Source: Halarcobacter ebronensis (GTDB lineage: Bacteria; Campylobacterota; Campylobacteria; Campylobacterales; Arcobacteraceae). From it: 64,000 nt of DNA. Every line of letters starts with the position of its first letter. Within the stretch, counting starts at the first letter, position 1. The stretch covers positions 1,426,001 through 1,490,000 of the forward strand of contig NZ_CP053836.1 in assembly GCF_013201825.1 (NCBI RefSeq), in the 5' to 3' direction. Made by a program: the position numbers and the translations under genes. The notes under the pieces were generated by a model. That model worked only from the letters and a program-made list of their open reading frames with translations. It did not search any database and was not told where the DNA came from. Shown piece after piece: positions 15,980 through 39,375 of this stretch.

Positions 15980-17470
15980 TTAGATAGTTCTCCATTTAGC
16001 TGGACCAGTAGTGTGAATAGAATTACCTTCAGTGTCAACAGCGACAGTAACAGGCATGTCTTTTACGTCAAACTCGTAAATAGCTTCCATACCAAGCTCT
16101 TCAAATGCTAATACTTTTGCATCTTTGATTGATTGTGAAATTAAATATGCTGCTCCACCAGTTGCAATTAGGTACATTGATTTATACTCTTTGATTAAAT
16201 CAATTGTTGGTTGCTTTCTCTCAGCCTTACCAATCATACCCATAATACCAATCTCCATCATATCTTTTGTAAATTTATCCATTCTTGTAGATGTTGTTGG
16301 TCCTGCTGGTCCTACTTTCTCATCTCTTACTGGATCAACTGGTCCAACATAATAGATAAATCTATCTTTTAGTTCAACTCCATTTGGCAATGGTTTATTA
16401 GCATTTTTATATTCAACTATTTTTTTATGGGCTGCATCTCTTGCAGTTAAGATTTTTCCACTTAATAATAGAGTATCTCCTGATTTAAACTCTTGAAGTT
16501 TCTCTTTTGTTAAATCCTCTATATTTACTCTTTTAATTGTATCCATAGGTAGTTCAATATCTGGCCACAAATCTAAATCTGGTTTATTAAATTTAGCTGC
16601 TCCATTCCCATCTAATTCAAAGTGGATATGTCTTGTTGCAGCACAGTTTGGAATCATTGCAACTGGCAATGATGCTGCATGACATGGGTAATCTAAAATT
16701 TTAACATCAAGTACAGTTGTAATACCACCAAGTCCTTGTGCTCCAATACCTATTTTATTAATATCTTCATATAGTTTAAGTCTTAACTCTTCAAGAGCAT
16801 TTTGTGCACCTCTCTCTTTTAGTTCATGAATATCAACATGACCCATCAAAGACTCTTTTGCCATAAGCATTGCTTTTTCTGGATTTCCACCAATACCAAT
16901 TCCTAAGATTCCTGGAGGACACCATCCTGCTCCCATATTTCTTACATTTTCCATAACCCAATCATAAATAGAGTCAGATGGATTTAACACTGCAAATTTA
17001 GATTTATTTTCACTTCCTCCACCTTTTGCTGCTACTGTAAACTCTATTTTATCTGAGTTATCAATACTATAGTGAATTACTGCTGGTGTATTATTTTTTG
17101 TATTTTTTCTTTCACCTGCTGGATCACTTACTATTGAGTATCTTAAGGTATTATCTGGATGTGTATATCCTTGAGCAACACCTGCGTTTATAATATCTTC
17201 TAATTCATTTGTTATATCAAGCTCGGCTTTTGTTCCTATTTTTACAAATACATTTACACTCCCTGTATCTTGACACAATGGTCTATGTCCCATTGCACAC
17301 ATTTTTGAGTTTATTAATATTTGTCCTATTGCATTTTTTGCAGCTTCACTCTTCTCTTTCTCATATGCTTCTACCATCCCTTTTACAAAATCCTCTGGGT
17401 GGTAGTACGAAATATATTGTACTGCATCTGCTATACTCTGTTTTATATCGTTTTCTGTTATTCTAGCCAT
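15980..17470 (-). CDS. fumA: fumarate hydratase, class I ([4Fe-4S], single chain)
   Basis: A 496-residue Fe-S hydro-lyase with the alpha (TtdA-like) and beta (TtdB-like) parts fused. Cluster-ligand cysteines are in MCAMGHRPLCQDTG near residue 66, GAGWCPPGILGIG near 178-190, and the LPVAMIPNCAATRHIHFELD region near 270. The beta-like part contains LSGKILTARDAAHKK near 341 and GPAGPTTSTRMDKF near 386. Enzymes of this class interconvert fumarate and malate and are oxygen-sensitive; some also hydrate mesaconate. That could matter here because a mesaconyl-CoA-type locus lies 15 kb away, though the link is inference. It is adjacent to fumC. Confidence 0.93.
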   Translation of the reverse strand: MARITENDIKQSIADAVQYISYYHPEDFVKGMVEAYEKEKSEAAKNAIGQILINSKMCAMGHRPLCQDTGSVNVFVKIGTKAELDITNELEDIINAGVAQGYTHPDNTLRYSIVSDPAGERKNTKNNTPAVIHYSIDNSDKIEFTVAAKGGGSENKSKFAVLNPSDSIYDWVMENVRNMGAGWCPPGILGIGIGGNPEKAMLMAKESLMGHVDIHELKERGAQNALEELRLKLYEDINKIGIGAQGLGGITTVLDVKILDYPCHAASLPVAMIPNCAATRHIHFELDGNGAAKFNKPDLDLWPDIELPMDTIKRVNIEDLTKEKLQEFKSGDTLLLSGKILTARDAAHKKIVEYKNANKPLPNGVELKDRFIYYVGPVDPVRDEKVGPAGPTTSTRMDKFTKDMMEIGIMGMIGKAERKQPTIDLIKEYKSMYLIATGGAAYLISQSIKDAKVLAFEELGMEAIYEFDVKDMPVTVAVDTEGNSIHTTGPAKWRTI

Positions 17471-31318: not shown

Positions 31319-32161
31319 TTATTCAACTACTTGATATAGTTTACTACATTGTGAAAGATGAATATTATCTCCTGCCATATCTCTTTTAATATCTTCAAAA
31401 GAGTGGAAATGTGCATTATACACATAAATAAAGATCTCATCACCTTTTTGTAAATAGTTTTTTTTACCAAACTCTGTATATGCAGTTGCCCCTGCAGCTA
31501 TTAATAATCCCTTGTGTTTGCTTATTGTCTCTAAATATTGAGGTAAGCCTTCAAGAGGTCCTAAATCAGGTTGATTATTAAACTGTTTTATCATCCACTC
31601 TTTTAATTGAGTAAAAAAGTATGAGTATGATTTTACAGCACTTATTGCTCCATAGTTTTTTAAAACTCCATCTCTTCTTACAAAAGAAGCAATATGATAT
31701 TTGCCTAAAATTCCCTCCTCTTCAAAGTTGTCAATTTTAATAAACTCAGGAGCTATTCCTTTTGAAGCATCTCCCCAATTTTTTTTAGTGCTTAGTTTAT
31801 TTCCATCTTGAACTCTATTTGAGCAATCATTGAAGGCTCCAAAATATTTTGGAATTAAATCAACCAATTTCCCATTTTTATATTTGAAATCACAAAGCAA
31901 AGCAACTTCTGCTTCAACTTGTAGTTTTTCAATATTATTATGATTGATACTATGAGTAGAGTAAGGAAAATTTCCTAAATGGGAACTATCTTTTGGAATA
32001 TAAAAAGGAAAAAGTCCCTTTGGAGCATCTTTTTGTTCTGTTTTTATATCTTTAAACCCGTCTGCTTCACCTGCTTCACCTAAGTGATTTGCAAAGTTTC
32101 CTGCAACACCAAAACCTAAATAATCTTTTAAATCTTCAAGATTAATACTATATTTGTCCAT
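31319..32161 (-). CDS. DUF5718-like protein, possibly fumarylacetoacetase-fold
   Basis: 280 residues. I associate it with the uncharacterised DUF5718 family from Campylobacterota-type genomes. The segment VEAEVALLCDFKY followed by YFGAFNDCSNRVQ resembles the metal-binding Glu and ND(V/C)S motifs of the fumarylacetoacetate-hydrolase fold, and the C-terminal KGDEIFIYVYNAHFHSFEDI would be the closing strands. A hydrolase or decarboxylase of a beta-keto or CoA-free acid is therefore possible, but this is inferred from a few motifs. It is transcribed alone, and the mesaconyl-CoA-type genes lie just upstream on the same strand after a 242-bp gap. Confidence 0.6.
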   Translation of the reverse strand: MDKYSINLEDLKDYLGFGVAGNFANHLGEAGEADGFKDIKTEQKDAPKGLFPFYIPKDSSHLGNFPYSTHSINHNNIEKLQVEAEVALLCDFKYKNGKLVDLIPKYFGAFNDCSNRVQDGNKLSTKKNWGDASKGIAPEFIKIDNFEEEGILGKYHIASFVRRDGVLKNYGAISAVKSYSYFFTQLKEWMIKQFNNQPDLGPLEGLPQYLETISKHKGLLIAAGATAYTEFGKKNYLQKGDEIFIYVYNAHFHSFEDIKRDMAGDNIHLSQCSKLYQVVE

Positions 32162-32403: not shown

Positions 32404-33387
32404 TTATGCAAAGAATCTTTTTTCAGCTTCCTCTAATAGTTTGGTTCCTGAGAATTTTGCCCTTTGAACAAGTTCCCAAAAGTATCTATATGTAGCTCTG
32501 TCATGTAGCTCCCCATCATATTGAATAGGTCCCCACTGCTCATCTTGAGCTTTTATAAGAATATTTTGAGCAGCTTCAAGCTCTGTAAAATCTGGTTTCA
32601 TAGCATCAACAATTGCTTGAACTTGTGTTGGGTAAATAGACCACATTCTCATAAACCCAAACTCACTTCTAGCACGTTCAGCATCTTTATATGTTTGGTA
32701 TGGGTTTTTTAAATCAAGGGTTACATTGTGGCAAGGGATAACATGGTTTTGAATTGCTGCTTGACAAACCTTTGCTTTTGCTGCTGCAATTAGTCTATGT
32801 TCAAACTGCCCTGGACTTCTCATATTTATTGCAGGGATTGCCCCTTGGTACCCTGATACAAAATCCATTAGACCAAAATCAAGTACTTGAAGCCAAGGTA
32901 AAGTTGCTATTTGCTCCACATCTCTTAAAGCCCCGTGAGTCTCTATTAGAATATGAATTGGAATCTCTCTTTTTATTCCTGCCTCTTTTGCCACTTTTTG
33001 AATATACTCAATTTGCATCTTAGCATCCTCATAACAAGTTGATTTTGGCAAAGTTATATATGCTAACTTCTCGCCAGCTCCAGGAACAAGGATATCAACA
33101 TCTTGTCTCCAATCTGGGTGAGAGTGGTCATGTATTCTAGTTCCAGCCATAGCGTATGGATTCTCATCAGAGTTTACAACTCTTACAATCATTTGTGCAT
33201 GCTCTACCTCTTTTCCTGTTTCTGCTCCATCTTCACAATCACAAGTAATATCAAATACAGGTCCAAGCTTTTTTTGCATCTCAAAACCTTTTTTAATAAG
33301 TTTTTCACTTCCTGCAAAGTGCTCGCAAGCTGGAATAATTGGCAAAGATTTACCTGATTCAAATAGTGCTTCATTTGGGTGTGTCAT
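32404..33387 (-). CDS. CitE/HpcH-family CoA-ester lyase (malyl-/methylmalyl-CoA lyase type)
   Basis: A 327-residue TIM-barrel lyase of the citrate lyase beta / malyl-CoA lyase family. It keeps the canonical residues: acidic pair in TCDCEDGAETGKE near 48, arginine in AGTRIHDHSHPDWRQD near 83, metal Glu in HILIETHGAL near 147, Asp in DFGLMDFVSGYQ near 170, and the end block WSIYPTQVQAIVDA near 251. Such enzymes cleave 3-hydroxy-dicarboxyl-CoA esters to acetyl- or propionyl-CoA and an oxoacid, or act as thioesterases. It is 156 bp downstream of the mesaconyl-CoA hydratase and is the best candidate here for cleaving beta-methylmalyl-CoA. The exact substrate is inference. Confidence 0.82.
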   Translation of the reverse strand: MTHPNEALFESGKSLPIIPACEHFAGSEKLIKKGFEMQKKLGPVFDITCDCEDGAETGKEVEHAQMIVRVVNSDENPYAMAGTRIHDHSHPDWRQDVDILVPGAGEKLAYITLPKSTCYEDAKMQIEYIQKVAKEAGIKREIPIHILIETHGALRDVEQIATLPWLQVLDFGLMDFVSGYQGAIPAINMRSPGQFEHRLIAAAKAKVCQAAIQNHVIPCHNVTLDLKNPYQTYKDAERARSEFGFMRMWSIYPTQVQAIVDAMKPDFTELEAAQNILIKAQDEQWGPIQYDGELHDRATYRYFWELVQRAKFSGTKLLEEAEKRFFA

Positions 33388-33543: not shown

Positions 33544-34614
33544 TTATTTACCTGTTTTTTTCTTTGGTATGATTACAGTGTAATCCAAATCAAGTACCAC
33601 ATTTTTTAGGTACTTACCTTCTTCATCTTTTGGCTGTTCAATTTCACTTGAAGCTTGATTTTTAACTGCAATAGTTCTTAATCTTAAAAGCCCAATATCT
33701 TCTCTACTGTGCTCAAGTTTCTCTAAAATTTCTGTGTAAGCATAGATAGTATCTCCAGCATAGGTTGGATTACAGTGGGCTCCACTATTTATTGCATATA
33801 CCCATTGGGCATTTTGTAAACCATTAAATGATATTGCCCTAGCAATTGAGATAATAATACCTCCATACATCAATCTTTGCCCCATAGGAGAGCTTTTCAT
33901 CATATGGTCATTGAAGTGCACCTTTGCATTGTTTTGATAAAGCTTTGTTGCCAAAGTGTGGTCACTATTATCAATTGTAATACCCTCAGGGTGATTTAAT
34001 CTCTCTCCTACCTCATAATCTTCAAAGAAAAACTTTCCACCAGTTGCATCTGTATTAACTTCATCTATTTTTGGAATATTAATCTTTTCTAAAATAGGAG
34101 TTGCCTCTTTAAAACTTGGTATTTCACTAATTTTACTTAAAGTTTGGGTATCTCTTTTATGAACCATAACCCATCTTTTGAAGTTTAATACCTCTTCATC
34201 TCTTTGATTTTTTCCTATAGAGTGCACATATACAACTCCACTTTTTCCATTTGAGTTCTCCTTTAATCCAATAACTGTTGAACTCATAGAGACTGTATCT
34301 CCAACATATACAGAAGTTGGAAAACGAATCTCCGCATAACCTAAATTTGCAATAGCATTTAAAGAGATATCTTGAACAGATTTTCCAAAGGTTAGATGAA
34401 ACATCAAAATATCATCTATTGGTCTTTTCTCATATCCAAGCTCTTTTGCTACAATATCCGAAGAGTGTAGGGCAAACCTAGAACCAGTGAAAGCTATATA
34501 TAGAGATACATCACCCTCACTAATTGTTCTAGGCAAGGGATGAACTATCTCTTGACCCATAAAAAAGTCTTCAAAAAAGTTACCCATATTTATTTTAGTA
34601 CTAATTTTTGACAA
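33544..34614 (-). CDS. mch: mesaconyl-CoA hydratase (MaoC-type double hotdog)
   Basis: About 356 residues with two hotdog/MaoC halves. The opening GNFFEDFFMGQEIVHPLPRT, then EGDVSLYIAFTGSRFALHSS, ISLNAIANLGYAEIRFPTSV and GVVYVHSIGKNQRDEEVL, agree closely with mesaconyl-C1-CoA hydratase (beta-methylmalyl-CoA dehydratase) of the ethylmalonyl-CoA and 3-hydroxypropionate cycles as I remember that family. The second half carries DHTLATKLYQNNAKVHFND. The frame can be read from a TTG at 34635, but AAGGAG at 34626-34621 is 6 bp from a TTG at 34614 whose product begins MSKISTK, matching known N-termini; I use that. It lies 10 bp after the ligase-lyase fusion gene. It would interconvert mesaconyl-CoA and beta-methylmalyl-CoA. 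Confidence 0.88.
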   Translation of the reverse strand: MSKISTKINMGNFFEDFFMGQEIVHPLPRTISEGDVSLYIAFTGSRFALHSSDIVAKELGYEKRPIDDILMFHLTFGKSVQDISLNAIANLGYAEIRFPTSVYVGDTVSMSSTVIGLKENSNGKSGVVYVHSIGKNQRDEEVLNFKRWVMVHKRDTQTLSKISEIPSFKEATPILEKINIPKIDEVNTDATGGKFFFEDYEVGERLNHPEGITIDNSDHTLATKLYQNNAKVHFNDHMMKSSPMGQRLMYGGIIISIARAISFNGLQNAQWVYAINSGAHCNPTYAGDTIYAYTEILEKLEHSREDIGLLRLRTIAVKNQASSEIEQPKDEEGKYLKNVVLDLDYTVIIPKKKTGK

Positions 34615-34624
34615 ATCTTGCTCC

Positions 34625-37144
34625 TTATTTTCCAAATAGATTTTGACCTAAAGATTTATATGTCTCATAAAGGGTAATCATTTTTTTAGCCCATCTAATC
34701 TTACACTTATCAATAAGCTTATCTTTAAATAGAATTACCTCTTTACCATCTTTCTCTGCCTCTTCATATTTGGCAATCATCTGCTCATACTCTTCAACCT
34801 CTTTTTGCTTTGGAGTGAAGATATCATTTATATACTCAACTTGTACAGGGTGGATTAAAGCCTTCCCATCAAATCCTATATCAAAAGCATCTTTTGTGGA
34901 GTCTTCACAAGCAAACTCATCATGCACATCATAGTGAGCACCATCAATTACAGTTTTCCCATAAGCTTTTGCTGATAGGGCAATTCTAGCTAGGTAATTA
35001 AACATAGCCTTAGAACCTCTTTTTATATCTATTTGAAGTCTATTTGCCAGCTTATTTGAACCAACAACTACAACTTCAAGTTTTGAACTAACTCTGCATA
35101 TTTCAGGTGAGTTTAGAATAGCTAAAGGTGTCTCTATCATAACCATCATTGATAGTTCTGGATTTAGTTCCATCAAAGCTTCTTCTGCTTGTAACACTTG
35201 TTCTGGTGTTTCAATTTGTGCAAATAAAATTGCATCTATTTCAAGCTCTGAAGCTAGTTTCATATCTTTTTCAAACTCAGGTGTTCCTATAACATTAACT
35301 TTTAAAATTCTTTCACTTTCACCAAATTTAGAACCCTCTTTATCAAATATCTCTTTAATAGTATTTCTAGCAACCTCTTTTTGCTCTTGTAAGATTGCTT
35401 CCAAATCAAACACCACACAATCTGCTAAGATTGATTTTGCTTTTTGTAGATACTTTTTATTATATGCTGGAACAAAAAGCATAGATCTTCTTGCTTTATA
35501 TTCTATTATCTCTTCACCACTTTGTTTTGCATGGTATTGTTCATGTAACTGTTTTACTAACTGTTTTCTTAGAACTTTTCCATTTTTTGTTCTTGGATAA
35601 TCTTTTAAACCATAGATTATCTTTGGAGCTTTATATTTCGCAAGATTCTTTTGAGAGTAGGCTAAAACTTCCTCTTCTTGCTCTTTTGTTAGCTCACGAT
35701 GCCCAATAACTGCTATTGCAACTAGAGTTTTCTCTTTTTCAATATCTAATCCAAAAGCAACACAATCAGCCACTAATTCGTGTGTTTTAACAACTCTTTC
35801 AATCTCATGTGGAGATACTCTAAATCCAAAGGTATTGATAATATCATCTTTTCTACCTATAAACCAGATATAGCCATCTTTGTCTTTTCTTGCATAATCT
35901 CCTGTAAAGAAGTATCCATCATGCTTTGCTTTTGTTGTTTCATCCTCTAAATGCCAATACTCTAAGAATAGTCCAGGATCATCAACTCCAATACAAATCA
36001 TTCCTTCCTCTTCAAGACCAACTTCTTCTAAAGTTTCAGGATTTAGAAGTTTTACAGTGTGTCCTGGTTGTACAAAACCTGCACTTCCCGGTCTAATAGG
36101 ATTATAAATAGAGTGAGAAATATAATAAGAACATTCACTCATACCAATGGCTTCATAAATATCTTGTTTGAATCTCTCCTGCCAAAGTTTAATCATCTCA
36201 TCAGATAGGTGTTCACCTGCGCTCATGCAGTATCTTAAACTTGAACAATCCTCTATTGTAGAATCTGTTTTTTGAATAATCTGTCTATAAATAGTTGGAA
36301 CACCAATAAAGATTGTACAATTATGCTTTTTGATTAAATCAATCCACGTTGATGCATCATTTGAACCCTCATAAGCTATTACAGTGTGCCCATTGTACAG
36401 TGGATCCATTAGAGCAGAACCCAATACATATGTCCAGTTAAACTTTCCAGAGTGCATAATTCTGTCATTCTCTTTAAAGTTAAACCAATACTCAGTTGCA
36501 GGGGTTCTTCCAATTAGTGACCTATGTGAGTGTAAAACTCCCTTTGGATATCCAGTTGTCCCAGAAGTATATACCAAATATGCAGGTTCACCAGCTTTTG
36601 AGTTGTAGTGATTTGGTGTTTTATCGGCTGTTTTTAATATCTCATTTAAAGAGTATACATTTATCCCTTTTGGTTTTTTAAGCTCCTCCACACTATTTAT
36701 AGCTGCAACAATAATTGTTTTTAAGTTATCAATATTTTCTAAATATGGAACTAGGTTCTCATACATAGAAGCTGACAGTACAATTGCACTTGCTTGTGAA
36801 TCTTCAGCAAGATATTTAACCTCTGAACCACTTAATAGTGTTGAAGTTGGAACTGCAATAATTCCAGCTTTAATACTTCCAAAAAAAGAGATAGGGTAAG
36901 CAAGTGAGTTTTTTAGACATACTAAAACTCTATCCCTTGGTCCAATTCCAATTGAAGTTAGGAAGTTACAAAGTTGATCTGATTTTTCAGATAACTCTTT
37001 ATATGTAATCTCATCAGTACCAAGCTTATCATCTTCAATAATCATAGCTGTACTGTTCTCTTTTTTAGTTCCTAAATGTTTTGATGTACAAGCTACACCA
37101 ATATTTAAAAATTCAGGTACTTCAATTTTTAGATTTGTACTCAT
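34625..37144 (-). CDS. acyl-CoA ligase fused to a CitE-like lyase domain
   Basis: An 839-residue fusion. Residues 1-540 are an AMP-forming acyl-CoA ligase: P-loop YLVYTSGTTGYPKG near 190, EAIGMSECSYYIS near 330, TGDYARKDKDGYIWFIGRKD near 405, and the C-terminal catalytic Lys in RTKNGKVLRKQL near 510. It is closest in feel to benzoate-CoA-ligase-like enzymes. Residues about 550-839 form a CitE/HpcH barrel (RRSMLFVPAYNKK, MIETPLAIL, ALIHPVQVEYINDIF). Key lyase residues are changed: DLED is DLEA, the RxN arginine is lysine (LKVNVIG), and the metal Asp in GxxD is Asn (GSNKL). AGGGAG is 7 bp before the ATG at 37144 (a TTG lies two codons upstream). It probably activates the pathway acid; the lyase half may be inactive or altered. 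Confidence 0.85.
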   Translation of the reverse strand: MSTNLKIEVPEFLNIGVACTSKHLGTKKENSTAMIIEDDKLGTDEITYKELSEKSDQLCNFLTSIGIGPRDRVLVCLKNSLAYPISFFGSIKAGIIAVPTSTLLSGSEVKYLAEDSQASAIVLSASMYENLVPYLENIDNLKTIIVAAINSVEELKKPKGINVYSLNEILKTADKTPNHYNSKAGEPAYLVYTSGTTGYPKGVLHSHRSLIGRTPATEYWFNFKENDRIMHSGKFNWTYVLGSALMDPLYNGHTVIAYEGSNDASTWIDLIKKHNCTIFIGVPTIYRQIIQKTDSTIEDCSSLRYCMSAGEHLSDEMIKLWQERFKQDIYEAIGMSECSYYISHSIYNPIRPGSAGFVQPGHTVKLLNPETLEEVGLEEEGMICIGVDDPGLFLEYWHLEDETTKAKHDGYFFTGDYARKDKDGYIWFIGRKDDIINTFGFRVSPHEIERVVKTHELVADCVAFGLDIEKEKTLVAIAVIGHRELTKEQEEEVLAYSQKNLAKYKAPKIIYGLKDYPRTKNGKVLRKQLVKQLHEQYHAKQSGEEIIEYKARRSMLFVPAYNKKYLQKAKSILADCVVFDLEAILQEQKEVARNTIKEIFDKEGSKFGESERILKVNVIGTPEFEKDMKLASELEIDAILFAQIETPEQVLQAEEALMELNPELSMMVMIETPLAILNSPEICRVSSKLEVVVVGSNKLANRLQIDIKRGSKAMFNYLARIALSAKAYGKTVIDGAHYDVHDEFACEDSTKDAFDIGFDGKALIHPVQVEYINDIFTPKQKEVEEYEQMIAKYEEAEKDGKEVILFKDKLIDKCKIRWAKKMITLYETYKSLGQNLFGK

Positions 37145-37159
37145 CTTCAAACTCCCTAA

Positions 37160-38293
37160 TTATATTTGACCATAAGGCCAGTTCTCTTTAAATGTATGCA
37201 GTGGCATTTTATTTAAAACTTTTACTGCAAACTCATAATCTTCTCTTTGTAAACTATTAAGGGCATTTGCTCTTAAAATATTTTGCAAAGATTTACCAAA
37301 CATTGGTGGATCTAACATCTCCCCTTCATGTCTAATAGCTCCACTTAGAAGTGCATCTGCTTCTATTGCAGCTTTTAATATCTCTATATCTCTTTTTATT
37401 GCATTGGGACTTGGAGTAAAAGCAACCTTACAAATATTTATATGGTTTGGTGTAATTACTTGTTTTCCTGTTAATCCCATAGCTGTTTCTCTTTTTGCAT
37501 GGGCATAAACATGTCTTGAAGCATCATCTCCATGTAAATCCAACCATCTTCTAATATCTTTTTTCTCTACACATGAATCTGGAAGTGAGTTTGGTGTAAG
37601 TAATACTTCAACCCCTCCAATTACACCTTTACCTTTAATTCTTGCTTCCATAGTAAGCATATTAAAGAAAGTCTCTAATTCATCAATCCAATTTTCAGGA
37701 GTGATTTTATATGCCATAGCTTTAGAAAAGTCATGGATACCAAATACCACATGTTGAACTGTAGAATGACTCATTAACTTATCTGCAATTTGTAGTGATT
37801 TTGGGTGTTCTATAATTGGCTGAATTTGAAGAGAACTTCCAATTGACATAAGCCAAGAAGATAAATCTCTAATCTCTGCATCCCCATAAACTTCCCCTGC
37901 TTTTGCTAAAACAATTGCATCAATATATTTATGAATCTGTTTTAGCATCTTTAAATCCTCTTCATACTCATGGGTTCTAAAAGGATTTATTCTAACTGCT
38001 ATTTGAAAGTTTCTCTCAGGAAACTTTGGAAGCTCTTGGATAAGAAGCTCTCTACTCATAGCTTTTTGTCTACACCCATCTTCAAGGTCAAATAAAACTG
38101 TATGAGCTTTTGTTTTATATGCATGTTTTTGAAGCCTATATTTAGCTTGCTCCATAGTCTCGTATGTTCCATCAAGTGGATTAAATTTAATTGGTGGATA
38201 ATATATTTGAATTCCTGGCCACTTACCACCAAGTACCGGAGTTAAATCGTCATTTGCTGTTAGTTTTGATAAATCTACAAAAGATGAATTCAT
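37160..38293 (-). CDS. CitE/HpcH-family lyase, long form
   Basis: A 377-residue citrate lyase beta-like protein. Canonical residues are intact: VLFDLEDGCRQKAMSRE near residue 68, AVRINPFRTHEYEEDL near 97, PIIEHPKSLQI, VFGIHDFSKAMAY near 187, and the end block ITPNHINICKVAFTPS. It is about 50-80 residues longer than ordinary CitE, with an N-terminal extension and a C-terminal helical region. AGAGG lies 10 bp before the ATG. It is the first gene of the run lyase - ligase/lyase fusion - hydratase - lyase, and is divergent from an IclR regulator. A CoA-ester lyase role (for example methylmalyl-, malyl- or citramalyl-CoA) is inferred. Confidence 0.8.
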   Translation of the reverse strand: MNSSFVDLSKLTANDDLTPVLGGKWPGIQIYYPPIKFNPLDGTYETMEQAKYRLQKHAYKTKAHTVLFDLEDGCRQKAMSRELLIQELPKFPERNFQIAVRINPFRTHEYEEDLKMLKQIHKYIDAIVLAKAGEVYGDAEIRDLSSWLMSIGSSLQIQPIIEHPKSLQIADKLMSHSTVQHVVFGIHDFSKAMAYKITPENWIDELETFFNMLTMEARIKGKGVIGGVEVLLTPNSLPDSCVEKKDIRRWLDLHGDDASRHVYAHAKRETAMGLTGKQVITPNHINICKVAFTPSPNAIKRDIEILKAAIEADALLSGAIRHEGEMLDPPMFGKSLQNILRANALNSLQREDYEFAVKVLNKMPLHTFKENWPYGQI

Positions 38294-38462: not shown

Positions 38463-38489
38463 AATATGATAGTTTCATATTATGAGAAA
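38463..38489. promoter_or_regulatory. inverted-repeat operator candidate at the IclR-lyase divergon
   Basis: AATATGA-TAGTT-TCATATT is a perfect 7-bp inverted repeat (38463-38481), and TTTCATA-T-TATGAGA (38473-38487) overlaps it as a near-palindrome. IclR regulators bind palindromes in their own divergent promoters. The site covers the first in-frame ATG (38482) of the regulator, which argues that the real start is downstream. Confidence 0.45.
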
Positions 38490-39375
38490 AATCTCAAAAA
38501 TAATCTTAATATGCAAAATAAAAATTTTTATATTTGTGCTTATTTTTTACTCACTTGATTTTTTTTGTAACATAAGTAGTTGTTTTTGTACTAATATTCT
38601 TTATTTAAAAGATGATAAGATAGGAAAAACAAGTAAAAAAGAGAAAAAATTGCAAAACCAAAATAAATCTTTTTCAAAGGGTCTTCAAGTTTTAAAAGAG
38701 ATAATGCGATCTTCTAAGCCTTTAACAGCAAACTCTTTATGTCAAAAGCTTGATATTGATAAAAGTACAATGTCAAGGCTTATTACAACGTTGATGAGCG
38801 AAGGATTTATAGAGTATAAAGGAAGCAGTAAAGAGATTATTTTAAGTGATATTTTAAGAAATATTGTACATAAAGATGATAGACAAAGAGTAATTGAAAA
38901 GAGTAGGGCACTTCTTGATGAGATATTTTATTTAACAAATGAGGCCTCATATTTGGGAATACTTGATAACAATGCAACTTTGTATTTAAATCAAGTAGAC
39001 AAATCAAATAGGGTAATAAAAACAATTGATTCTATTGGACTTCATTCCCCTTTACATTCAAATGCTTTTGGGAAAGTTCTTATAGCTTTTGGAAATGTTG
39101 ATATAAACTCTTTAAAACTAACAAAATTTACTTCGAATACAATAACAACAGTTTCTAAACTTGAAAAAGAGATAGAAATTATTAAACAAAGAGGTTATGC
39201 AACAGGAAGTGAAGAGCATGAGTTTGGTTTAAAATCAGTGGCAGTTCCATATTTCAATAAAAAAGGTGAACTAATAGGAACTGTTGGTATCTCTGGGCTT
39301 TCTGTTAGACTTGAAGAGGAGAAGCTTCACAAATTTGGACAAGAGATTTTCAAACTTGTAAACGCAAATTTCTAA
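38482..39375 (+). CDS. IclR-family transcriptional regulator
   Basis: A 297-codon frame. From about residue 63 it is a typical IclR protein: winged helix (SFSKGLQVLKEIM, LTANSLCQKLDIDKSTMSRL), linker, and GAF-like effector domain (NEASYLGILDNNATLYLNQ, HSPLHSNAFGKVLIAF, GYATGSEEHEFGLKSVAVPY, IGTVGISGLSVRL). The first 60 codons encode a hydrophobic, Cys-rich stretch unlike IclR N-termini, and the ATG has no Shine-Dalgarno, so translation may begin downstream, possibly at the TTG of KKLQNQ near residue 57; I leave the longest frame. It is divergent from the lyase/ligase/hydratase genes, which it probably controls in response to a pathway acid. Confidence 0.85.
   Translation: MRKISKIILICKIKIFIFVLIFYSLDFFCNISSCFCTNILYLKDDKIGKTSKKEKKLQNQNKSFSKGLQVLKEIMRSSKPLTANSLCQKLDIDKSTMSRLITTLMSEGFIEYKGSSKEIILSDILRNIVHKDDRQRVIEKSRALLDEIFYLTNEASYLGILDNNATLYLNQVDKSNRVIKTIDSIGLHSPLHSNAFGKVLIAFGNVDINSLKLTKFTSNTITTVSKLEKEIEIIKQRGYATGSEEHEFGLKSVAVPYFNKKGELIGTVGISGLSVRLEEEKLHKFGQEIFKLVNANF

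Follow-up and report, generated by a model that had tools for sequence, protein, structure and literature searches.

A conserved acyl-CoA ligase fused to a CitE-fold domain that lacks the canonical magnesium site in Halarcobacter ebronensis and related bacteria

We analysed computationally a 64,000-nucleotide stretch of the Halarcobacter ebronensis genome (contig NZ_CP053836.1, positions 1,426,001 to 1,490,000; hereafter, the window) that encodes, on the minus strand, a protein in which an AMP-forming acyl-coenzyme A (CoA) ligase is fused to a domain with the fold of CitE-like lyases (the lyase half). The canonical catalytic set of CitE-like enzymes is complete in 0 of the 74 distinct fusions compared (the truncated loci L110, L117 and L118 are excluded from all residue counts), and the lyase half is under purifying selection. 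Unfused homologues of the lyase half, denoted CitE3, are also degenerate when encoded in operons of this type, and the degeneracy tracks the presence of a sister lyase, CitA. Taken together, these observations indicate that the lyase half is probably a conserved pseudo-lyase partner of the ligase, that is, a helper or docking part, rather than a decayed copy.

The fusion protein and its degenerate active site

The fusion is encoded in one open reading frame (ORF) of 841 codons (34625-37150, minus strand) that starts with TTG. Two codons inside this ORF, at 37144, there is an in-frame ATG with an AGGGAG motif 7 nt upstream, so the gene most likely spans 34625-37144, as the preliminary description of this locus had it, and would yield a protein of 839 amino acids. 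Residues are numbered here from the TTG; numbering from the ATG is lower by 2. Three Pfam domains score above their cut-offs, namely, PF00501 (AMP-binding, residues 31-399), PF13193 (AMP-binding_C, 449-525) and PF03328 (HpcH_HpaI, 555-768; 105 bits against a cut-off of 25). The ligase half is complete, in agreement with the preliminary description: every column of the YTSGTTGxPKG motif except x, the TGD motif and Lys525 are invariant in all fusions. Both Pfam domains, the P-loop motif and the C-terminal Lys characteristic of AMP-forming acyl-CoA synthetases are present. This half is predicted to form a CoA ester from an acid, ATP and CoA. The closest structures are of the benzoate, 4-hydroxybutyrate and medium-chain type (3ETC, 8BIQ, 4WV3; E-values down to 9e-57), none of them close enough to give the substrate, and the scores fall below the curated NCBIfam cut-off for all 25 families listed out of 110.

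In the malyl-CoA lyase of R. sphaeroides, the catalytic set consists of Glu44, Asp45, Arg76, the Mg ligands Glu141 and Asp168, and Asp299 of the lid, and the lid of one subunit closes the active site of the neighbouring subunit; in the available part of the account by Zarzycki and Kerfeld (PMC3832036), these residues are described as shared by all CitE-like enzymes and malate synthases, apart from a lid Glu in the malyl-CoA thioesterase cluster, and Asp45 and Asp168 are called absolutely conserved. The preliminary description reported three departures from this set in the fusion. The first, DLEA for DLED, is correct, and the loss of the Asp extends to all 74 fusions, none of which has Asp in the Asp45 column (Ala in 60, Gly in 9, Tyr in 3, Met and Glu in one each). 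Intact CitEs have one residue more in the DLED segment, so the Asp may have been deleted rather than substituted. The second, Lys for the substrate Arg, is correct for this protein (Lys617) and is a local change rather than a defining feature, given that the column holds Arg in 67 fusions and Lys in 7. The third, Asn for the metal Asp, is right about the loss and off by one residue about the replacement: Lys700 aligns with Asp168, and Asn699 is its neighbour. No fusion has Asp in this column, which is occupied by Lys in 51 cases, Asn in 9, Thr in 8, Ser and Arg in 2 each, and Ala and Gln in one each. The preliminary description did not mention that the metal Glu column (Glu673) is mostly kept and that the lid Asp (Asp814) is present in all 74 fusions. 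Thus, the window protein has the barrel, the lid with its Asp and a DGKxxxHPxQ stretch, and lacks the complete Glu-Asp pair, the second of the two Mg ligands and the substrate Arg. The two separate CitE proteins of the locus keep the full set, as originally claimed: all eight columns checked are conserved in 79 of 79 CitA ORF sequences and all seven in 63 of 63 CitB ORF sequences, counts in which near-copies that differ in their start may be present (under another coverage filter, the distinct cores number 75 and 62, respectively). One sequence, L111, contains an X and was omitted from one fusion alignment (A3).

The lyase half is under purifying selection and is less constrained than the ligase half. 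Among 46 fusions, the ratio of nonsynonymous to synonymous substitution rates (dN/dS, Nei-Gojobori) has a median of 0.21 and a maximum of 0.56 for the lyase half, compared with a median of 0.13 for the ligase half (795 of the 1035 pairs; the other 240 were removed by dS limits), and the invariant columns across the 74 fusions amount to 46% in the ligase, 19% in the barrel and 12% in the lid. The preliminary description had set its reading against the possibility that this copy merely decayed while orthologues stayed intact; the absence of the canonical set from every fusion, combined with purifying selection, rules this out. Modelled alone, the lyase half forms a triosephosphate isomerase (TIM) barrel with a lid hairpin (predicted local distance difference test score, pLDDT, 86; predicted TM-score, pTM, 0.79), and the model matches malyl-CoA lyases and human CLYBL with VIA-align Z-scores of 29-32; Foldseek was run as well. 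Malate synthases and pyruvate kinases, which appear in the same list at Z of about 22-27, reflect the shared barrel and were not used. In this model, the CitE fold and the lid survive in the lyase half; by the alignments, the canonical Mg site does not.

It appears unlikely that the lost site was exchanged for an altered, metal-independent chemistry, in which the Arg, Glu673 and the lid Asp would act on the CoA ester (by enolisation, dehydration or epimerisation, for example), with Lys700 or Asn699 replacing the metal. Such an activity would account for the lid Asp and Asn699 being invariant, for the metal Glu being kept in 66 of the 74 fusions and the Arg in 67, and for the prevalence of Lys in the metal-Asp column, but that column varies in a way not expected of a new catalytic residue, and the barrel is far less conserved than the ligase. 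Quite improbable, too, is a residual ordinary lyase, which would hold Mg2+ through Glu673 and nearby groups and function as a slow canonical citramalyl-CoA lyase, making the whole protein an ATP-dependent citramalate lyase. The Arg, the metal Glu and the lid Asp are mostly kept, and the Arg-to-Lys change in malate synthase G leaves 6.6% of the activity, as given in the consulted part of PMC3832036; however, the second Mg ligand and the water-holding Asp are absent from all 74 fusions, and the same operon encodes two CitE proteins with the full set.

Unfused relatives and the origin of the fusion

On two contigs named Methylophilales and Methylophilaceae (L115, L116), an unfused homologue of the lyase half (35-36% identity) is followed by MaoC and CitB genes. 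In the same genomes, the ligase has a gene of its own (58-59% identity to the ligase half) that lies between the gene for CitA and one for a class I fumarase, directly upstream of the latter in both cases. Among 369 genomes drawn from the same class, which we take to be Gammaproteobacteria in GTDB, four have CitA, ligase, CitE3 and MaoC in one row and CitB facing the other way, and a fifth has an arrangement of the Methylophilales type, without a fumarase in the fetched stretch. The ligase gene thus adjoins the CitE3 or the CitA gene in the unfused operons; therefore, the two genes united in the fusion come from an operon in which other bacteria still keep them apart. Genes of the methylcitrate cycle occur near unfused CitE3, prpB and prpC after the operon in L115/L158, and prpB in L116, a proximity that would tie the pathway to propionyl-CoA.

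The existence of these operons bears on the possibility that the lyase half is an evolutionary leftover, a redundant lyase fused by chance and retained only to help the ligase fold or remain stable. The faster evolution of the lyase half compared with the ligase half, and the existence of a free ligase protein in the Methylophilales, would be expected in that case. However, dN/dS is well below 1, no stop interrupts either half in any of the 41 matching genomes from the genus and family, the lid Asp is invariant within the least conserved part of the protein, and the unfused degenerate CitE3 is maintained as a gene of its own, so we regard a leftover as very unlikely.

The catalytic set of CitE3 is broken in seven of the seven operonic copies, by changes unlike those in the fusion. 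DLED is replaced by DLGD, DLGA, DLHE, DLHR or ELHE; the metal Asp is changed to Asn in three copies, the Arg to Gly in one and the metal Glu to Asp in one; and the lid residue is Gln in three and Glu in four. All 22 homologues compared from outside such operons have an intact set, with Asp or Glu in the lid; these come from the better matches, namely, the copies of 21 of the 66 matching genomes in the draw of 369, together with five sequences from the order of H. ebronensis. Another close homologue, G749, which is in two contig pieces and stands outside these counts, has DLED, the Arg, Glu and Asp, and a lid Glu.

In a maximum-likelihood tree of 45 sequences, which contains the active-site columns and some long branches (L165, L184, L185), the 16 fusions form one clade (support 100/100) on a long stem. 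They belong to a larger clade of 24 sequences (100/99) that includes the seven operonic copies and a single intact sequence, L167 (8975-9853, minus strand). This intact CitE3 adjoins prpB-, prpC- and prpD-like genes (G457), and no match to CitA was detected in its genome at E <= 1e-20. Among the 17 genomes with an intact or degenerate CitE3, CitA was found in five, exactly those with a degenerate copy, and among the 369 genomes of the class, in six, each with a degenerate CitE3. Hence CitE3 degeneracy tracks the possession of CitA. Because the replacements differ between lineages, the data suggest repeated loss of the CitE3 catalytic set in a small number of independent events. L167 could serve as a natural control when lyase activity is compared with that of degenerate CitE3. 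In a further locus (L179:10342-12597, plus strand), CitE-like genes flank two MaoC-like pieces that belong to different ORFs.

Proposed function, pathway and operon

We propose that the protein is an AMP-forming CoA ligase tethered to a non-catalytic, CoA-thioester-binding and oligomerising pseudo-lyase that would hand the ester to the lyases of the operon, a reading to which we give roughly even chances. The pseudo-lyase, which could not accommodate the Mg2+ and keto-acid half of the usual reaction in the normal manner, would bind the CoA ester and would gather ligases around a CitE-type trimer. The ester would then pass to the operon's active lyases, with CitA as the most likely recipient, because it is the presence of CitA that tracks the degeneration of CitE3. 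The substrate of the ligase would most likely be a C4 or C5 dicarboxylic acid such as mesaconate or (S)-citramalate.

Several observations weigh against this proposal. Asp42, Glu44, the Arg, the metal Glu and the lid Asp are mostly kept, a degree of retention that a simple scaffold would not require, and the lyase half may therefore still carry out some chemistry. The evidence for the hand-over to CitA is co-occurrence, and the cases are only modestly independent in phylogenetic terms: on the tree, a minimum of two switches between the intact and the degenerate state is enough, and two pairs among the seven operonic CitE3 copies are near-copies. The model of the full-length protein is weak (pLDDT 75, pTM 0.55), and nothing was drawn from its domain arrangement.

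The retained lid Asp could also point to a more active partnership, which we consider unlikely, in which the pseudo-lyase would be an obligate subunit acting in trans. It would form mixed trimers with CitA, its invariant lid Asp completing the CitA site, and the complex, with the ester passed inside it, would be an ATP-dependent citramalate (or malate) lyase. The unfused operons with a lid Glu or Gln would then represent other forms of the same partnership, and the third CitE would have given up its own Mg site in turning into a lid donor or dock.

The proposed tethered ligase can be placed in a route suggested for Arcobacter butzleri by Miller et al. (2007), in the available part of which (PMC2147049) propionyl-CoA and glyoxylate are interconverted with acetyl-CoA and pyruvate through mesaconate and citramalate. 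Here, a CitE would condense propionyl-CoA and glyoxylate to beta-methylmalyl-CoA; MaoC would convert this to mesaconyl-CoA, which would give mesaconate; the class I fumarase would turn mesaconate into (S)-citramalate; the ligase of the fusion would activate it to citramalyl-CoA; and a CitE would cleave the latter to acetyl-CoA and pyruvate. A ligase making citramalyl-CoA or mesaconyl-CoA would accordingly sit beside the lyase step of the route. Some class I fumarases are known to act as mesaconases (PMC4682846, consulted in part). In the genome of H. ebronensis, models of family III CoA-transferases, malate synthase and methylaspartate ammonia-lyase yielded no match, which, together with the nearby fumarase, MaoC and two intact CitEs, fits this route; the methylaspartate route from glutamate was rejected for this genome, given that MAAL_C had no match.

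The missing transferase is also what a thioesterase or CoA-recycling role of the lyase half would explain: by hydrolysing mesaconyl-CoA or a misprimed product of the ligase, the domain would, jointly with the ligase, mimic a mesaconyl-CoA transferase. The nearest intact neighbours in the tree carry a lid Glu, as does the malyl-CoA thioesterase clade in the part of the work of Zarzycki and Kerfeld (PMC3832036) available to us. The fusions, however, have a lid Asp and have lost the residues that hold Mg2+ and its waters, and we consider this role distinctly improbable.

The operon runs on the minus strand in the order CitA, fusion, MaoC-fold protein, CitB and DUF5718 protein, next to a divergent IclR-family gene that starts at 38482 (Table 1). 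The three HpcH_HpaI matches in the genome at E <= 0.001 all lie inside this run. The MaoC-fold protein contains the mesaconyl-CoA hydratase domain PF19315 (82.9 bits; gathering cut-off 26.5) and falls below the cut-off of the NCBIfam model of haloarchaeal hydratases (85.6 against 560); an in-frame internal TTG preceded by AGGAG may be its true start. In many relatives, too, a DUF5718 gene comes after the operon, and the family, whose function is uncharacterised, may therefore take part in the pathway. There are two class I fumarase genes in the H. ebronensis genome (15980-17470 in the window and G000:C1:381552-382373) with identical family scores of 324 bits, which may be near-identical duplicates.

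Table 1. Coordinates of the fusion gene, its parts and the neighbouring genes (positions in the window; residues counted from the TTG)
Feature	Coordinates	Strand	Basis or remark
Fusion gene: acyl-CoA ligase and CitE-fold pseudo-lyase (probable)	34625..37144	-	ORF, Pfam, start motif
AMP-forming acyl-CoA ligase, residues 31-525	35576..37060	-	PF00501 and PF13193; motifs invariant in 74/74 fusions
Variable linker, residues ~532-552	35495..35557	-	pLDDT <50 at 545-555; among 48 fusions, only residues 533 and 551 invariant there
CitE-fold TIM barrel, PF03328, residues 555-768, degenerate Mg site	34847..35488	-	Pfam, alignment, predicted structure
C-terminal lid (helix, beta-hairpin, helix), residues ~779-834	34649..34816	-	Secondary structure of model; lid of CitE-like enzymes (source consulted in part)
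Residues 584-585, Glu-Ala, at Glu44-Asp45 of R. sphaeroides malyl-CoA lyase (DLED Glu-Asp pair)	35396..35401	-	Asp absent in 74/74
Lys617, substrate-Arg column	35300..35302	-	Alignment of fusions (R67 K7 of 74)
Glu673, first Mg-ligand column (Glu141), mostly kept	35132..35134	-	Alignment of fusions (E66 D6 A1 Q1)
Asn699-Lys700; Lys700 at second Mg-ligand Asp column (Asp168)	35051..35056	-	Asp absent and Asn699 invariant, each in 74/74
Asp814, lid catalytic acid/base column	34709..34711	-	Invariant in 74/74
CitA, CitE-like with full residue set, 377 aa, first gene of operon	37160..38293	-	
MaoC-fold mesaconyl-CoA-hydratase-like protein	33544..34635	-	PF19315 over cut-off
CitB, CitE-like with full residue set	32404..33387	-	Closest solved relatives 3qqw (Reut_B4148) and 3r4i (Bxe_B2899)
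DUF5718 protein, frequent operon neighbour	31319..32161	-	
IclR-family regulator, divergent	38482..39375	+	Best NCBIfam match BhcR, below its cut-off
Class I fumarase (possible mesaconase)	15980..17470	-	~14 kb from operon here; beside operon in many relatives

If the lyase half is indeed a pseudo-lyase partner, it would be a metabolic pseudoenzyme whose loss of the metal site is traceable on a tree through an intact relative, unfused degenerate forms and the fused form, all in living bacteria. It would help explain an uncharacterised route of C5-dicarboxylate or propionyl-CoA and glyoxylate metabolism that is common in Arcobacteraceae, and would correct annotations that name the protein or the domain an active citrate or malyl-CoA lyase.

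Distribution and comparison with known systems

The preliminary description took the fusion to be unusual, but in the Arcobacteraceae-like family it is common. In a search of 100 genomes, 41 of the 61 that belong to the same genus and family, H. ebronensis among them, had a full-length fusion (16 of 16 in the genus), and the 39 from other families of the order had none. The matches span both halves without a stop in each of the 41 genomes, and the fusions other than that of the window are 64-90% identical to it. When the lyase half was used as the query against a second draw, of 397 genomes from the phylum, it had 38 close matches whose frames span at least 840 codons, 34 from the same family and four from another (f20); for one of these (G266), a TAG is listed within the matched range, but the fetched frame is open over 848 aa.

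Scanning genome contigs with an alignment of 13 lyase halves identified 53 loci, mostly from Arcobacteraceae and Sulfurospirillum, and some from metagenome-assembled genomes (MAGs) named Chromatiales or Gammaproteobacteria. The order CitA-fusion-MaoC-CitB is present in 47 of these loci, one of which has an additional MaoC-like ORF; another locus shows CitA-fusion alone. In 21 of the 53, the stretch retrieved also encodes a class I fumarase on the same strand. The occurrence of the same architecture in many assemblies rules out misassembly. The four Arcobacteraceae and Sulfurospirillum loci measured have a G+C content of 28-35%, and the MAG loci L096, L101, L103 and L109, 33-38%; mis-binned Campylobacterota DNA is an unlikely source of the fusions in L094 (50% G+C) and L113 (47% G+C). 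Among 3542 plasmid records with a match, seven had one place covering 80% of the fusion query: four are annotated as separate genes, H13, unannotated, is a ligase-like frame without the lyase half, and H3 and H8 are unannotated. CitA matched seven plasmid records, at 23-28% identity.

A literature search limited to open-licence papers found neither a biochemical study of the fusion nor any account of the broken site, the link to CitA or the degenerate unfused relatives. The fusion is not described in the consulted parts of PMC3832036, PMC4682846, PMC6593406 and PMC6689899, unlike PMC2147049, from which both the architecture and the pathway idea have been known since 2007. In the latter, as far as the available text goes, AB1918 of A. 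butzleri likewise combines an acetyl-CoA-synthetase-like region with a CitE domain, and its cluster (ab1917-ab1921) likewise includes two CitE-like genes, an enoyl-CoA-hydratase-like gene and an anaerobic fumarate hydratase. That text proposes the CitE domain of AB1918 as a possible lyase and makes no mention of degenerate residues, unfused relatives or a pseudo-enzyme.

The lyase half shares the whole fold, including the lid hairpin, with malyl-CoA lyases (4L9Y/4L9Z, 4L80, 5UGR) and human CLYBL (5VXC). Malyl-CoA lyases, as portrayed in the available part of PMC3832036, possess both Mg ligands, the Glu-Asp pair, the Arg and the lid Asp, whereas two of these Asp residues are missing from every fusion. 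The (S)-citramalyl-CoA lyase RipC/Ccl (NF038242; 3QLL, 8KHL) belongs to the same superfamily, and the lyase half matches its NCBIfam model with an E-value of 4.8e-30; however, the score of 105 bits is below the cut-off of 375, and the Mg site is lost in the fusion. The match to the beta subunit of citrate lyase, CitE (TIGR01588), is likewise below the cut-off, at 141 bits against 443.4. With the second half of the 3-hydroxypropionate bi-cycle and with the methylaspartate cycle, the H. ebronensis pathway would share chemistry of the beta-methylmalyl-CoA lyase, mesaconyl-CoA hydratase and citramalyl-CoA lyase type. Compared with these two cycles, H. ebronensis has a CoA ligase and a class I fumarase, and its genome yields no match to a family III CoA-transferase or a methylaspartate ammonia-lyase.

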